This document shows, one piece after another, positions 26,586-33,652 of a DNA stretch of 64,000 bases. A program made the translations under genes and the position numbers. Every line of letters starts with the position of its first letter. Position 1 is the stretch's first letter. The DNA is from Acetobacter cerevisiae (GTDB taxonomy: Bacteria; Pseudomonadota; Alphaproteobacteria; Acetobacterales; Acetobacteraceae). The notes beneath the pieces were generated by a model. It saw only the letters and a program-made list of their open reading frames with translations. It was not told the origin of the DNA and made no database searches. The stretch is from contig NZ_LHZA01000157.1 in NCBI RefSeq assembly GCF_001580535.1, positions 124,001-188,000 of the forward strand, read 5' to 3'.

Positions 26586-27923
26586 TCAGTTGTCCGTCGA
26601 TAAGACGCGATAGATTGCGTCCGTCAGGGCAGTCAGGTCTTCCGGCGGAATGGTGAAGGCCGGGGTCAGATAGACAATCGAGCGGAACGGACGGATCCAC
26701 ACATTTTCCGCAATAAAGCGCTGCCTCAAAGCGTCCGGGTTGGCGATTTTCTCCAGTTCCACCACACCAATCGCGCCCAGAACACGGACATCCTTCACGC
26801 CCGGCAGGGTGCGGCAGCGTTCCAGTTCTCTGGTCAGGTGCGCGTTGATGGCGGCAACCTGTTCAAGCCGGGGTTCAGTTTCAAACAGATCCAGCGAGGC
26901 ATTGGCGCAGGCGCAGGCCAGAGCGTTGGCCATAAAAGTCGGCCCGTGCATCAGGGCGTGTTCCGGGTTGTCGGACAGGAACGCTTCAAACACATGCGGG
27001 CGTGCAATGGTGGCCGCAAGCGCCATGGTGCCGCCTGTCAGGGCTTTGGAGAGCGTTACGATATCCGGTACAATTCCTGCCTGTTCGCACGCAAACATCG
27101 TGCCGGTGCGGCCAAACCCGGTAAAAATTTCATCCAGAATGAGTAGCAGGCCATAGCGATCCGCCGCAGCGCGCAACGTGCGCAGCACATCGGGGGAATG
27201 GAAGAGCATGCCGCCCGCACCCTGCACCAGAGGCTCGGTGATGATGGCGGTCAGTTCATGCGCGTGGGTCTCCAGCAGCGTGAAAAATTCGGCCTCGCTG
27301 GCGTCGTCCTGCGGGAGAGGGGCGATGATGTGATTGGCCAGCACGTCTCCATAGAGATGGTGCATGCCTTCTTCCGGGTCGCAGACCGACATGGTGGCGA
27401 GGGTGTCTCCATGATACCCGCCCTTGAAGGCCAGCATCTTGGTGCGTTTCGGCTCACCTTTATTCAGACGATACTGAATGGCCATTTTCATGGCGACTTC
27501 CACCGCAACAGAGCCGGAATCTGTAAAGAAAACCCGGTCCAGATCCCCCGGCAGCAGGGCGCACAGGCGGCTGGCCAGCTTTAGCGCGGGCTCATGCACC
27601 ATCCCACCAAACATGACGTGCGGCATGGTGGCCAGTTGCGCCTCAATGGCTGCGCGGATATGGGGGTGGTTGTAGCCGTGGCAGGCTGTCCACCATGCGG
27701 CCACGCCATCCACCAGTTCCCGGCCGTCCGTCAGCTGAATGCGCGCATTATGCGTGCTGCGGGCCGCCAGAGGGGCAGGGGCGGTTTTCATCTGGCTGTA
27801 GGGCAGCCAGATATGCGGCAGGCCTTGTGTGTACCACTCCGGTGTGGCGGCTGTAGCGGCCTGCTCTGAGTGGTGAGAAGAGGCTATGCGGGAGGCCGCA
27901 AGGGGATTCTGGGGGGCGGACAT
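26586..27923 (-). CDS. bioA: Adenosylmethionine-8-amino-7-oxononanoate aminotransferase BioA
   Basis: A 445-residue class III PLP aminotransferase that converts KAPA to DAPA in biotin synthesis, using S-adenosylmethionine as amino donor. The PLP lysine is about Lys293 in LSKALTGGTMALA, with the preceding LILDEIFTGFGRTG block. The N-terminal HIWLPYSQMKTAP and HGPTFMANALACA are BioA-type substrate-site motifs. The ATG at 27921-27923 has AGGAG 10 bases upstream; the frame is open further out to 27986 but would overlap bioF. It is divergently transcribed from bioF with only 61 bases between starts. Confidence 0.95.
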   Translation of the reverse strand: MSAPQNPLAASRIASSHHSEQAATAATPEWYTQGLPHIWLPYSQMKTAPAPLAARSTHNARIQLTDGRELVDGVAAWWTACHGYNHPHIRAAIEAQLATMPHVMFGGMVHEPALKLASRLCALLPGDLDRVFFTDSGSVAVEVAMKMAIQYRLNKGEPKRTKMLAFKGGYHGDTLATMSVCDPEEGMHHLYGDVLANHIIAPLPQDDASEAEFFTLLETHAHELTAIITEPLVQGAGGMLFHSPDVLRTLRAAADRYGLLLILDEIFTGFGRTGTMFACEQAGIVPDIVTLSKALTGGTMALAATIARPHVFEAFLSDNPEHALMHGPTFMANALACACANASLDLFETEPRLEQVAAINAHLTRELERCRTLPGVKDVRVLGAIGVVELEKIANPDALRQRFIAENVWIRPFRSIVYLTPAFTIPPEDLTALTDAIYRVLSTDN

Positions 27924-27984: not shown

Positions 27985-29181
27985 ATGACGCGGTTTGATT
28001 ATCTTTTCCAGCATGGGCTGGAGGAACTGGCCGAACAGGGGCGTCTTCGCACGCCGCGCAGTCTTCAACCCAGAGCCGATGGGCTGCTGGAGAGAGAAGA
28101 CGGCACCGTTCTGGTTGATTTTTCCTCCAATGACTATCTCGGCCTGCGGGCGCACCCGCTTTTACGTGAGCGCGCGCTTGCCTGGGCGGAGCGCTATGGG
28201 GCAGGCTCCGGGGCCTCACGACTGGTGACAGGCACAGCCCCTGGTATGGTCGCGCTGGAAGCTAGGCTGGCGGCCCTGAAGGGGATGGAGGCAGCCTGCA
28301 TTTTCTCCTCCGGCTGGCAGGCGAATGCGACTCTGGTGCCCGCTCTCGCTCAGCTCTCGCTGGCGGCGACGGGTGCGGCCCCTACACTGATTGTCGATAA
28401 ATTCATTCATGCCAGCCTGTATCATGGCTGTGCTGCGGCTGGCGTGCGGCCTGTGCGGTTCCGGCATAATGACAGGGAGTATCTTGAAAGCCTCCTGCAG
28501 AAAGCCGATGGCCCCGGCCTGAAAATCATTCTGACAGAAAGCGTCTTCAGTATGGATGGAGACCGGGCCGATATGGCGGCGCTTGGTGCATTGGCTCGCC
28601 AGTATGGCGCGTTTTTGTGCGTGGATGAGGCACATGCCACCGGCATTCTGGGGCCGGACGGAAAAGGTCTGGCTGACGGGCAGGCGGACCTGATTATCGG
28701 CACGTTCAGTAAGGCTCTGGGCGGGATGGGCGCATTTATCGCTTCCTCATCCGCCGTATGCCGCTGGCTGGTGAATAAAGGCTCCGGCTATATCTACTCC
28801 ACAGCGCCATCTCCTCTGGTGTTGGGTGCGGTGGACGCAGCACTGGATCTGCTGCCAGATTTGGACGCAACGCGAGACCGTGTTGCGGGACTGGCGGAGC
28901 GGTTCCGGCAGCATATGTGGCGGGCCGGGTTGGAAACGGGGCCGTCTTCTACTCAGATTGTGCCGGTTGTTGTGGGGGGCGAACGCACGGCTCTCACCCT
29001 TTCTCGCATGGTGGAAGACGCTGGTTTTCTGGCGATTGCTATTCGTCCGCCTACGGTGCCACCGGGTGGCTGCCGCCTGCGGGTGGTGCTGCACGGAAAC
29101 CATACAGAGGCGCAGGTGGACCAGCTGGCGCAGGTGCTCAAGGATGCTGTGTCGCAGTGCGCAGCAATGGGATTTGCATGA
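27985..29181 (+). CDS. bioF: 8-amino-7-oxononanoate synthase BioF
   Basis: A 398-residue alpha-oxoamine synthase that condenses pimeloyl-ACP with L-alanine to give KAPA. The PLP lysine is Lys243 in GTFSKALGGMGAF, preceded by VDEAHATGILGPDGKG and the N-terminal SNDYLGLRAHP motif. Membership of the bio operon favours BioF over the related KBL or ALA synthase. The ATG at 27985 has no strong ribosome site. The stop overlaps the start of the next gene (ATGA). Confidence 0.94.
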   Translation: MTRFDYLFQHGLEELAEQGRLRTPRSLQPRADGLLEREDGTVLVDFSSNDYLGLRAHPLLRERALAWAERYGAGSGASRLVTGTAPGMVALEARLAALKGMEAACIFSSGWQANATLVPALAQLSLAATGAAPTLIVDKFIHASLYHGCAAAGVRPVRFRHNDREYLESLLQKADGPGLKIILTESVFSMDGDRADMAALGALARQYGAFLCVDEAHATGILGPDGKGLADGQADLIIGTFSKALGGMGAFIASSSAVCRWLVNKGSGYIYSTAPSPLVLGAVDAALDLLPDLDATRDRVAGLAERFRQHMWRAGLETGPSSTQIVPVVVGGERTALTLSRMVEDAGFLAIAIRPPTVPPGGCRLRVVLHGNHTEAQVDQLAQVLKDAVSQCAAMGFA

Positions 29182-29870
29182 TCGGGCCGCGGCTTGTTTT
29201 TGTGCATGGCTGGGGTTGCGGGCCGGATATCTGGGAGCCGGTGCTGGAGGCACTGGATCAGCGTTCAGCCTGTGTGCTGGATCTGGGCTATTTCGGAGCC
29301 TCGCAGAGCGACACACAGCAGCGGCTGGACGCTGTGCTGCGTGGGTCCCAGCCCGTGCTCGCCGTTGGTCATTCTCTGGGCTTTCTCTGGCTTCTCTCTC
29401 GTGGAGGCTGGCCAAAAAGGACACGCTTTCTGGGCATCAACGCGTTCGGGCGCTTTGCTGCCGAAGACGGTTTTTCGCAGGGCGTGCCTCAGCGTATGCT
29501 GACTCGCATGCAGACAGGCCTGCAGCGCGATGCAGTTCAGGTGGTCAATAATTTTCGCGCCCGCTGTGGCGTGGGGCCGGTTAGGCCGGATGCTGTTTGT
29601 GTGCCAGCGCTGCAAGAGGGGCTGACAGAGTTGATGACGCTGGACGCACGGCCTGCGCTGGCCCGTCTCGCTGAGGTGCCCGGGACCGTAAAGGTTCTGG
29701 CCGGGGAGCACGATCCGATTGTCAGCCCGGAGATGACGCAGGCCTCTTTCCCGCGGGGTGTGCCGGTTGAATGGGAATCTGAGGGCGGGCACATGCTCCC
29801 GCTGACACATCCACATGTCTGTGCCGAGGCTGTTCGGTGCATGATGTCACAAAATCTGGAAAACTCATGA
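29178..29870 (+). CDS. bioH: Alpha/beta hydrolase, probable pimeloyl-ACP methyl ester esterase BioH
   Basis: A 230-residue alpha/beta-fold hydrolase. HGWGCGPDIW forms the oxyanion hole, Ser66 lies in the elbow GHSLG, Asp179 in GEHDPIVS and His205 in GGHMLP, so the triad is complete. Its place between bioF and bioCD, with ATGA overlaps on both sides, makes the BioH role (cleaving pimeloyl-ACP methyl ester to end pimelate synthesis) very likely. Sequence alone does not separate BioH from other small esterases. Confidence 0.85.
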   Translation: MIGPRLVFVHGWGCGPDIWEPVLEALDQRSACVLDLGYFGASQSDTQQRLDAVLRGSQPVLAVGHSLGFLWLLSRGGWPKRTRFLGINAFGRFAAEDGFSQGVPQRMLTRMQTGLQRDAVQVVNNFRARCGVGPVRPDAVCVPALQEGLTELMTLDARPALARLAEVPGTVKVLAGEHDPIVSPEMTQASFPRGVPVEWESEGGHMLPLTHPHVCAEAVRCMMSQNLENS

Positions 29871-31315
29871 CCGACCGTTCTGCCCAGGCCCGACAGGCTC
29901 GCATTCAGCAAAGTTTTGATGCTGCGGAGGGGTATGATGCCGCCGCTGTGCTGCAACGTGTGGCGGCGCGGCGTCTGTTTGATGGTCTCCGGGCTCGGCT
30001 GGCTGGCCGAACGCCCCGGCGTATTCTGGAAGTTGGGTGCGGTACGGGCTTTCTCACGCACATGCTGCATGAGGCCTGGCCTGAGGCGGAACTGGTCGCA
30101 ACAGATGTTGCCCCCCGTATGCTGGAACGCGCCCGCAAGCGAGTCGGGGAAGGCGTGCAGTTTTGTGTGATGGATGCGGCCCGACCCGATGTGGCGGGGG
30201 CGTTTGACCTGATTTGCGGCAATCTGGTTTTCCAGTGGCTGGCCGAGCCCGCAGTAGCCTTGCAAACGCTGGCGGACCAGCTGGCCCCCGGTGGTGTGAT
30301 TGCGGTCTCCACCTTGCTGGATGGCACCTTTGAAGAATGGCGACAGGCCTGCAGCGCAGAAGGGCTTGTGGCCGCAACGCCGGATTATCCGGCCGCCCGG
30401 ACTGTGCAGGGCTGGCTGCCCGGCCTGTGCGCCGGGAAATGGACAACAGAACGGTGCGTTCAGCCGTTTGGGAATGGACTGGCCTTTGTAAAGCATCTGA
30501 AGGACACGGGGGCTGCCGTGCCGCGTGAAGACGGGAAGGCTTTCTCTCCCGCCGAACTGCGTCGTACTCTGGCGCGTTTTGATCAGGCCGGAGCTATGGT
30601 GACATGGCATCTGGCTTATGGCTGTTTTCAAAAGCCTCAACGCGCCGGAGTGTTTATCACCGGAACAGATACCGGCGTGGGCAAGACGCTGACATCTGCC
30701 TGCCTCGTCCATGCGTGGAAAGCAGCCTACTGGAAGCCGTTGCAAAGTGGGCTTGCGGATGAAGAAGGCGATACCAGCACGGTTATAAAGCTGAGCGGTT
30801 GCCTGCCGGAGGACTGCTTTCCGTCAGCCGGGGCGTATCAGGCCTCTCTGTCTCCTCTGGCGGCTGCCAGGGCCGAAGGTGCGGAGATTGACCCCGCACG
30901 TCTGGTTCTGCCTTTGGAGGATCCGCAGCGCCCGCTCGTGGTGGAAGGGGCAGGAGGCCTGATGGTGCCTGCGACCGATACGCTGATGATGGTTGATCTG
31001 GCTGAACGCTGGGGTTTGCCGGTGGTGCTTGTCGCCCGAAGCGGACTGGGGACGCTGAACCATACGCTGCTTAGTCTGGAAGCGTTGCGTGCCCGTGGTC
31101 TGGCTATTGCCGGGGTGGTGCTGAGCGGCCCGCTCAACCCGGAGAACAGCAAGACCATTCAGGAAAAAGGGCAGGTGCGCATTCTGGCAGAACTGCCACA
31201 GCAGAAGACCGTGACTGCGGAGATCGTTACAGCATTGAGCTGCCTGATCCCCTCATGGGACGATGTGTCTGAAGCAATGCAAGGAGTGCAGGCAGGCGTC
31301 TCAGAAAAGGTCTGA
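29867..31315 (+). CDS. bioCD: Fused BioC-BioD: malonyl-ACP O-methyltransferase / dethiobiotin synthetase
   Basis: One 482-residue frame holds two biotin enzymes. Residues about 1-252 are a BioC-type SAM methyltransferase, with motif I EVGCGTG at 55-61 and LICGNLVFQWL. It methylates malonyl-ACP to start pimelate synthesis. Residues about 258-482 are BioD, with the P-loop GTDTGVGKT at 266-274, KPLQSGL, VVEGAGGLMVP and VARSGLGTLNH. BioD closes DAPA to dethiobiotin using ATP and CO2. The junction is continuous with a short linker (YGCFQKPQRAG) and no stop or frameshift. The ATG overlaps the bioH stop (ATGA). bioB is not in the window. Confidence 0.93.
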   Translation: MTDRSAQARQARIQQSFDAAEGYDAAAVLQRVAARRLFDGLRARLAGRTPRRILEVGCGTGFLTHMLHEAWPEAELVATDVAPRMLERARKRVGEGVQFCVMDAARPDVAGAFDLICGNLVFQWLAEPAVALQTLADQLAPGGVIAVSTLLDGTFEEWRQACSAEGLVAATPDYPAARTVQGWLPGLCAGKWTTERCVQPFGNGLAFVKHLKDTGAAVPREDGKAFSPAELRRTLARFDQAGAMVTWHLAYGCFQKPQRAGVFITGTDTGVGKTLTSACLVHAWKAAYWKPLQSGLADEEGDTSTVIKLSGCLPEDCFPSAGAYQASLSPLAAARAEGAEIDPARLVLPLEDPQRPLVVEGAGGLMVPATDTLMMVDLAERWGLPVVLVARSGLGTLNHTLLSLEALRARGLAIAGVVLSGPLNPENSKTIQEKGQVRILAELPQQKTVTAEIVTALSCLIPSWDDVSEAMQGVQAGVSEKV

Positions 31316-32342: not shown

Positions 32343-33652
32343 GTGTTTAGGAAAATTATCACGGTTCCGGCAGCGTTTTGTGCCTGTTTCAGCCTGAGTG
32401 TGTCTCAGGCTGCGGCGCAGGCGACTGCTCCCGATGCGAATGCGTTCAGCTTTGCAGACCGCCTGACGCGGGACTGGGGCGGTGTGCGTCGCACTTTGGC
32501 GGAACATGGCGTGGATTTTCAGCTAACGGACCAGAATGAACTGTGGGCTGTTCCCGTGTCGGCGGCAGCCAGCCGTCCAATAACTACATTGGCGTGACCA
32601 CCGGCCAGCTTTCTGTGGATCTTGGGCGCCTGACGCATCTGCCGCTCGGCACCATTGGCATCAGCGGGGTGGATATTCGTGGTCATCCCTTCAGCAACCA
32701 GCCGCTTTATGTATTCAATCAGGTTTCCGGGATTGAGGCGGACATTAATCTGCGTCTCTATGAGGTCTGGTATGGCCAGACTTTTGACCATGACCGGCTG
32801 GATATGCGGATTGGGAAGCTTGATCTCAGTCATGACTTCATGGGGAGTGACGGCGCGATGCAGTTCATGAACGCCTCATTCTCCTGGCCCATGGTGCCGG
32901 ATAACAACCTGTACGATCAGGGGCCGGCGTCACCGCTGGGCACGCCTGCCGTGCGGGTCAAATACAAGCTTTCCAAAAGCTGGACGGTTCTGGCCGCAGT
33001 TGCGGATGATAACCCGATTGGCGCTGGTTTTCTGAACGATGCCGACCCGTGGAACCAGAATCAGGACCCCAGCGGCACCCGATTCCATTTTGGCACCGGG
33101 GCGCTGATGTTTCTGGAAGCGCAGTATCACACGCAGCTCTGGGGGAAGGACGGAACCTATAAGCTGGGCGGTTACGGAGATACCGGCCGCTTTCCGGATC
33201 AGGCTGACCCAACTGTTCGCCATAAAGGCAACTGGACATTTTACGCCGTGGCCGATCAGGTTCTGGCTAATCTTGCAGGCAAGCAGACGATTGCGGGCTT
33301 TGTGCGCGCCACCTGGGCACCGCCCGCCAACCGCAACCAGATTGTGAATGCGGTGGATGCGGGGCTTTTGCTGAACGCGCCATTCCAGCGCGAAAACGAT
33401 GTTCTGGGGCTTGGTTTCGGCTATGGCGAGGCCAGCCCGGTTTTGCGGCGGTCAGAACGGCGTGCGGGCACGCTGGCGCAGCACGCCGAATGTCATCTGG
33501 AACTGACTTATCAGTTTCAGGCGACACCCTGGCTCCTCATCCAGCCTGATCTTCAGGGGATGCTCTCACCCAGCGGCGGCGTGCTGGATACCGCAGGCCG
33601 CAGGGTGAAAGACGAAGCCATTTTTGGCCTGCATTCCAGCATGTCGTTCTGA
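32343..33652 (+). pseudogene. OprB-type carbohydrate porin, broken by a one-base frameshift
   Basis: The first frame (GTG 32343, AAAAGG upstream) encodes a signal peptide (KIITVPAAFCACFSLSVSQAAAQA) and the OprB N-terminus (FADRLTRDWGGVRRTLAEHGVDFQL..NELWAVPVS), then hits a stop at 32595-32597. The family sequence continues without loss in the next frame (GGSQPSNNYIGVTTGQLSVDL...) to the terminal phenylalanine at 33649. One base is missing around 32559-32561 (expected S-G-G-S). Restored, the protein would be about 436 residues, normal for OprB outer-membrane sugar porins. It could be a real null mutation or a sequencing error. An internal GTG at 32543 would yield no signal peptide. Confidence 0.85.

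Follow-up and report, generated by a model that had tools for sequence, protein, structure and literature searches.

A fused bioC–bioD gene in the biotin operon of Acetobacter cerevisiae and its relatives

Results

The biotin locus of Acetobacter cerevisiae

We analysed a stretch of 64,000 nucleotides from A. cerevisiae (contig NZ_LHZA01000157.1, positions 124,001 to 188,000; hereafter the window). Three genes follow one another on its forward strand: bioF (27985–29181), a bioH-like gene (29178–29870) and bioCD, a fused BioC–BioD gene (29867–31315). A 4-base ATGA overlap at each of the two junctions suggests that their translation is coupled. The initial annotation had reported bioF and bioH as neighbours of the fused gene, and bioF and the bioH-like gene do lie next to it in this order. 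The start of bioF was checked, and its product scores 377 bits against TIGR00858 (cut-off 426). The bioH-like product is an alpha/beta hydrolase (Abhydrolase_6); its match to the BioH model is weak (48.9 bits for a cut-off of 207), hence it was assigned by its position and its GHSLG motif. Identity of this esterase across related genera is 30–44%, and it may represent a distinct esterase type. On the reverse strand, divergent from these genes, an open frame at 26586–27923 encodes bioA, the diaminononanoate transaminase, identified as a conserved neighbour whose Azospirillum orthologue is annotated bioA. The bioB gene is found on the same contig, away from the bioCD locus. The initial annotation had asked whether separate bioC and bioD persist; searching the genome for a second BioC or BioD returned none. 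The order bioF–hydrolase–bioCD is shared by the window, nearly all relatives checked and Azospirillum.

One frame encodes a BioC-type methyltransferase and a BioD domain

The initial annotation described bioCD as a single continuous frame with a short linker between two intact domains, and this description holds in each respect. The frame comprises 482 codons and a stop codon with no internal stop, and Pfam and NCBIfam domains as well as orthologues support it. Residues 1–257 (29867–30637) form a BioC-type S-adenosylmethionine (SAM)-dependent methyltransferase domain and residues 261–482 (30647–31312) a BioD dethiobiotin synthetase domain; the linker, set by HMM boundaries, the junctions of other fused genes and DSSP strands, is reduced to residues 258–260 (30638–30646). 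This HMM-based spacing of 3 residues falls within the 1–6 residues found among fused genes. Pfam places Methyltransf_25 at residues 53–143 and AAA_26 at 261–452. With the NCBIfam models, residues 263–420 match TIGR00347 with 136.2 bits, above the cut-off of 83.3, and residues 19–256 match positions 5–244 of the 244 in the BioC model TIGR02072 with 159.1 bits (E 1.5e-46). The latter score does not reach the curated cut-off of 184.95 bits, which is an annotation threshold and no biochemical criterion; BioC is nonetheless the best full-length NCBIfam family, the runner-up methyltransferase model scoring 75 bits. Because the score lies below the cut-off, we take the substrate from context and label this half "BioC-type, predicted".

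The key residues of both catalytic motifs are invariant in 20 diverse homologues. These are G57, G59, T60 and G61 of the SAM-binding motif I EVGCGTG (residues 55–61, 30029–30049) in the BioC half, and G266, T267, D268, T269, G272, K273 and T274 of the P-loop GTDTGVGKT (residues 266–274, 30662–30688) in the BioD half, where K290, D302 and EGAGG (360–364) are invariant as well. The QW motif of the BioC half is also conserved. Between Acetobacter species pairs, dN/dS was 0.028/0.339 and 0.050/0.451 for the BioC half and 0.036/0.330 and 0.035/0.677 for the BioD half; these ratios, well below 1, indicate strong purifying selection on each half. Judged by eye, a separate internal start for BioD at the ATG at 30596 (M244) was rejected: its GGAG is badly spaced and the methionine is unconserved.

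The AlphaFold2 model of the bioCD protein has a pLDDT of 92 and a pTM of 0.90, and a second bioCD member, 37% identical to the window protein, is predicted with a pTM of 0.87; these confident predictions suggest that the two domains may be held in a fixed arrangement. BioD proteins are homodimers with the active site at the interface. In the modelled protein, DSSP assigns the last BioC strand to residues 244–255 and the first BioD strand to 261–266, leaving a gap of five residues. The top Foldseek match of the BioC half is Acinetobacter baumannii BioC (AbBioC, 8x8j/8x8i), with Z 21.4 and rmsd 2.9 over 213 residues for 8x8j, a Z that trans-aconitate methyltransferase equals. The BioD half aligns with Mycobacterium tuberculosis BioD 3fmi (Z 27.8, rmsd 1.9, 207 residues) and with 1dts (Z 23.6), and the plant BIO3–BIO1 enzyme (PDB 4a0f/4a0g/4a0h/4a0r) is among its structural matches.

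Distribution of fused and separate genes

Among 299 genomes sampled from the order, a match covering both halves was found in all 36 of the Acetobacter genomes and in about 59 further genomes belonging to 15 other Acetobacteraceae genera. The second count omits three g13 genomes, in which the halves are parted by an in-frame TAA. These counts come from the search table; DNA frames were verified for every locus fetched, the remaining genomes being table-based. The nearest named records, from A. malorum and A. orleanensis, contain the fused frame. The comparison with related genomes proposed with the initial annotation turned up, instead of a stop, a frameshift or relatives in which the domains are always separate, the same open fused frame in many genomes, including Azospirillum plasmids. 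Within the family, bioC and bioD are separate yet adjacent in eight genera (g3, g6, g13, g20, g21, g33, g37 and g41), and no clear BioC was found in the other family genera that were looked at. Genera g21 and g13 (L036–L042), whose bioC and bioD are separate, have bioA upstream and on the same strand as bioF; wherever bioA was seen in fused Acetobacteraceae (L033, L043–L050, L052), it is divergent. In one Acetobacter genome (G267; L133 about 2360–2430), the BioD half carries an insertion of about 20 residues after EGAGG that keeps the frame; an apparent truncation of BioD in this genome is really this insertion, the frame continuing to the domain end.

Outside Acetobacteraceae, we searched two samples of the class (385 and 388 genomes) and one of the phylum (398), which partly overlap; they gave a single further fused genome, G1163. 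Apart from the Azospirillum-type fusion, bioC and bioD are separate outside the family, often adjacent, in Alphaproteobacteria and in the phylum sample. Several apparent fusions outside Acetobacteraceae and Azospirillum (G403, G510, G415, G439, G407, G638, G318, G799, G939 and others) proved on reading the DNA to be two frames, with a stop codon or a frame change between them, and in G155 the 614-codon frame that contains BioD arises by chance and overlaps bioF. At a number of loci from Alpha- and other proteobacteria (L059, L060, L062, L115–L125), a non-random set chosen by our search for being in frame, only a stop codon separates bioC from bioD, with roughly 10–60 bases from the bioC stop to the first strand of BioD; these pairs are one mutation short of fusion, and none was seen fused.

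The Azospirillum fusion is plasmid-borne, in A. brasilense and A. argentinense, and its operon reads bioF–hydrolase–bioCD–bioA–bioB. In A. brasilense, the complete bio operon with bioCD (L165 7902–9311) lies on a 645-kb plasmid (NZ_CP012917.1). The Sp7 protein WP_035682570.1 (469 amino acids, about 50% identity) has the same fused architecture as the window protein; it differs in its plasmid location, a slightly longer linker and a bioA and bioB that follow it in the same orientation. The records examined annotate it "dethiobiotin synthase" and leave the BioC half unnamed. The G1163 fusion is 94% identical to that of Azospirillum; other genomes under its genus code gave no good match in the sample concerned, so that the presence of the fusion there is patchy.

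Evolutionary history of the fusion

We built a tree from the concatenated BioC and BioD halves and rooted it on separate-gene outgroups. We left two in-family rows with very long branches, g39 (fused) and g41 (split), and two outgroups out of the main tree because long branches met. Within the family clade, fused genes make up the deep branches, and the genera with separate genes nest among them; hence the fusion has been undone one or more times. The AU test on the concatenated halves without Azospirillum rejected the grouping of all fused genes in one clade (p = 0.003). The test was redone in this form because the Azospirillum BioC half groups weakly with the outgroups; an earlier test with Azospirillum had given p = 5e-5. 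The BioC half alone also rejected monophyly of the fused genes (p = 4e-4, Azospirillum included), but the BioD half alone did not (p = 0.19), so the case for fission leans mainly on the BioC half and on the concatenation. A history with just one fission is not rejected (p = 0.18), and the best trees give two. In the trees, the fusion maps to the base of the Acetobacteraceae genes, and one fusion followed by one or more fissions is the economical account. The concatenated tree puts the Azospirillum gene as sister to the family; since its two halves disagree when analysed apart, it may derive from an early transfer or from a separate event.

Discussion

A predicted bifunctional enzyme

Taken jointly, these data are very probably best explained by bioCD being one bifunctional enzyme that arose once, was mostly kept and was split again in some genera. 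Given the intact motifs and the lack of other copies, an enzyme carrying out both steps is by far the likeliest reading of the protein, its two catalytic activities being predicted from sequence. The N-terminal half would transfer a methyl group from SAM to the free carboxyl of malonyl-ACP (or -CoA), the step that would open fatty acid synthesis to the building of the pimelate chain, and the C-terminal half would close the ureido ring on diaminononanoate with ATP and CO2 to give dethiobiotin. The fusion most probably originated when the operon ancestral to the biotin operon of Acetobacteraceae lost the stop codon that parted its neighbouring bioC and bioD; retention in most genera and renewed splitting in some followed. 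In other bacteria BioD is soluble. BioC is reported to end up readily in inclusion bodies and, in soluble form, to block fatty acid synthesis (PMC11089781). More loosely, then, the fusion might be beneficial by fixing the dose at 1:1 and by stabilising BioC, an aggregation-prone and potentially toxic enzyme, through its attachment to BioD, with no substrate channelling: the two steps are non-consecutive, which makes direct channelling unlikely, an argument already made by the authors who described BioG–BioC (PMC3494674).

Coordinated dosage and a scaffold with BioH and BioF, the two ideas put forward in the initial annotation, are both hypothetical. Simple neutral retention is about as likely as the proposed benefit of dose and stabilisation. 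Under neutrality, a stop codon was lost, the joined protein worked equally well, and the fusion drifted to fixation and was inherited, an account to which we give slightly less than an even chance and which opposes the stabilisation and dosage proposal alone, leaving the bifunctional enzyme unaffected. Separate genes recurring inside the fused group would be expected from it, as would the many relatives whose in-frame bioC and bioD are parted by no more than a stop codon plus a few bases, a spacing that makes both fusion and fission easy; nor does joining non-consecutive steps offer any obvious gain in channelling. Against it, all 36 Acetobacter genomes and 15 other genera retain the fusion, its linker length nearly constant, and the in-frame neighbours outside the group are never fused in the genomes sampled. 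The conserved linker length and the confident two-domain model favour some role of the fusion, while the re-split relatives, which keep both parts adjacent, argue against an absolute need for it. One such role would make BioD a regulatory platform, the domains being rigid and the binding of ATP or diaminononanoate to BioD altering BioC activity. We consider this very improbable; if true, a late intermediate would control entry into the pathway and limit the withdrawal of malonyl-ACP from lipid synthesis.

Two further readings bear on the fused protein itself. The TIGR02072 score below the cut-off could mean that the BioC half has lost methyltransferase activity and is retained solely to aid the folding or stability of BioD, with pimelate supplied by another route such as BioZ; conservation of SAM motif I and the QW motif, the low dN/dS, the bioH-like gene directly upstream and the lack of another BioC in the genome all speak against this, and we hold it to be very improbable. 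An assembly or sequencing error joining two genes is practically impossible and already refuted by about 95 genomes that share the frame, as well as by named records; chance is likewise excluded by its recurrence throughout Acetobacter and in 15 further genera.

Comparison with known fusions of biotin enzymes

Fusions of biotin enzymes are already known, namely BioG–BioC, BioW–BioF and plant BIO3–BIO1; we found no published BioC–BioD fusion in the open-access literature searched, and "bioCD" in PMC11264691 means two genes and no fusion. The BioG–BioC protein of Bacteroides fragilis, which performs both jobs in Escherichia coli (PMC3494674), resembles bioCD in that BioC is fused to another biotin enzyme whose step is not directly consecutive and in deriving from adjacent operon genes. 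It differs in having the esterase BioG N-terminal to BioC, whereas BioD is C-terminal in bioCD, and in its flexible, Ala-rich linker of about ten residues, against 3 in bioCD. In addition, BioGC was reported in B. fragilis only, among the Bacteroides genomes of that study, while bioCD spans 16 genera. In plant BIO3–BIO1, BioD is likewise joined to another biotin enzyme; the partner, however, is BioA (DAPA aminotransferase), which acts just before BioD, making channelling plausible there, unlike in bioCD. BioWF (PMC9544090) is also a natural two-domain biotin enzyme, but it combines other enzymes, pimeloyl-CoA synthetase and AON synthase, in consecutive steps. In Gammaproteobacteria and other Alphaproteobacteria, the same two enzymes are encoded by neighbouring genes, often in the same frame, but with a stop codon between them.

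The first committed step of biotin synthesis would be hidden in a gene that RefSeq names only "dethiobiotin synthase" in the Azospirillum records examined. With one half annotated and BioC below the NCBIfam cut-off, automatic reconstruction of the pathway may overlook bioC in Acetobacteraceae and Azospirillum that do carry it. Because natural fused and re-split versions of the pair coexist in the clade, the benefit of fusing non-consecutive enzymes is directly testable, and if attachment to BioD does solubilise BioC, the fusion would provide a practical form of an enzyme prone to inclusion bodies.

Elsewhere in the window, a frameshift near 32,550 breaks the gene of an OprB-like porin (32343–33652, forward strand); two A. 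malorum records have this gene as a single intact frame of 438 codons.
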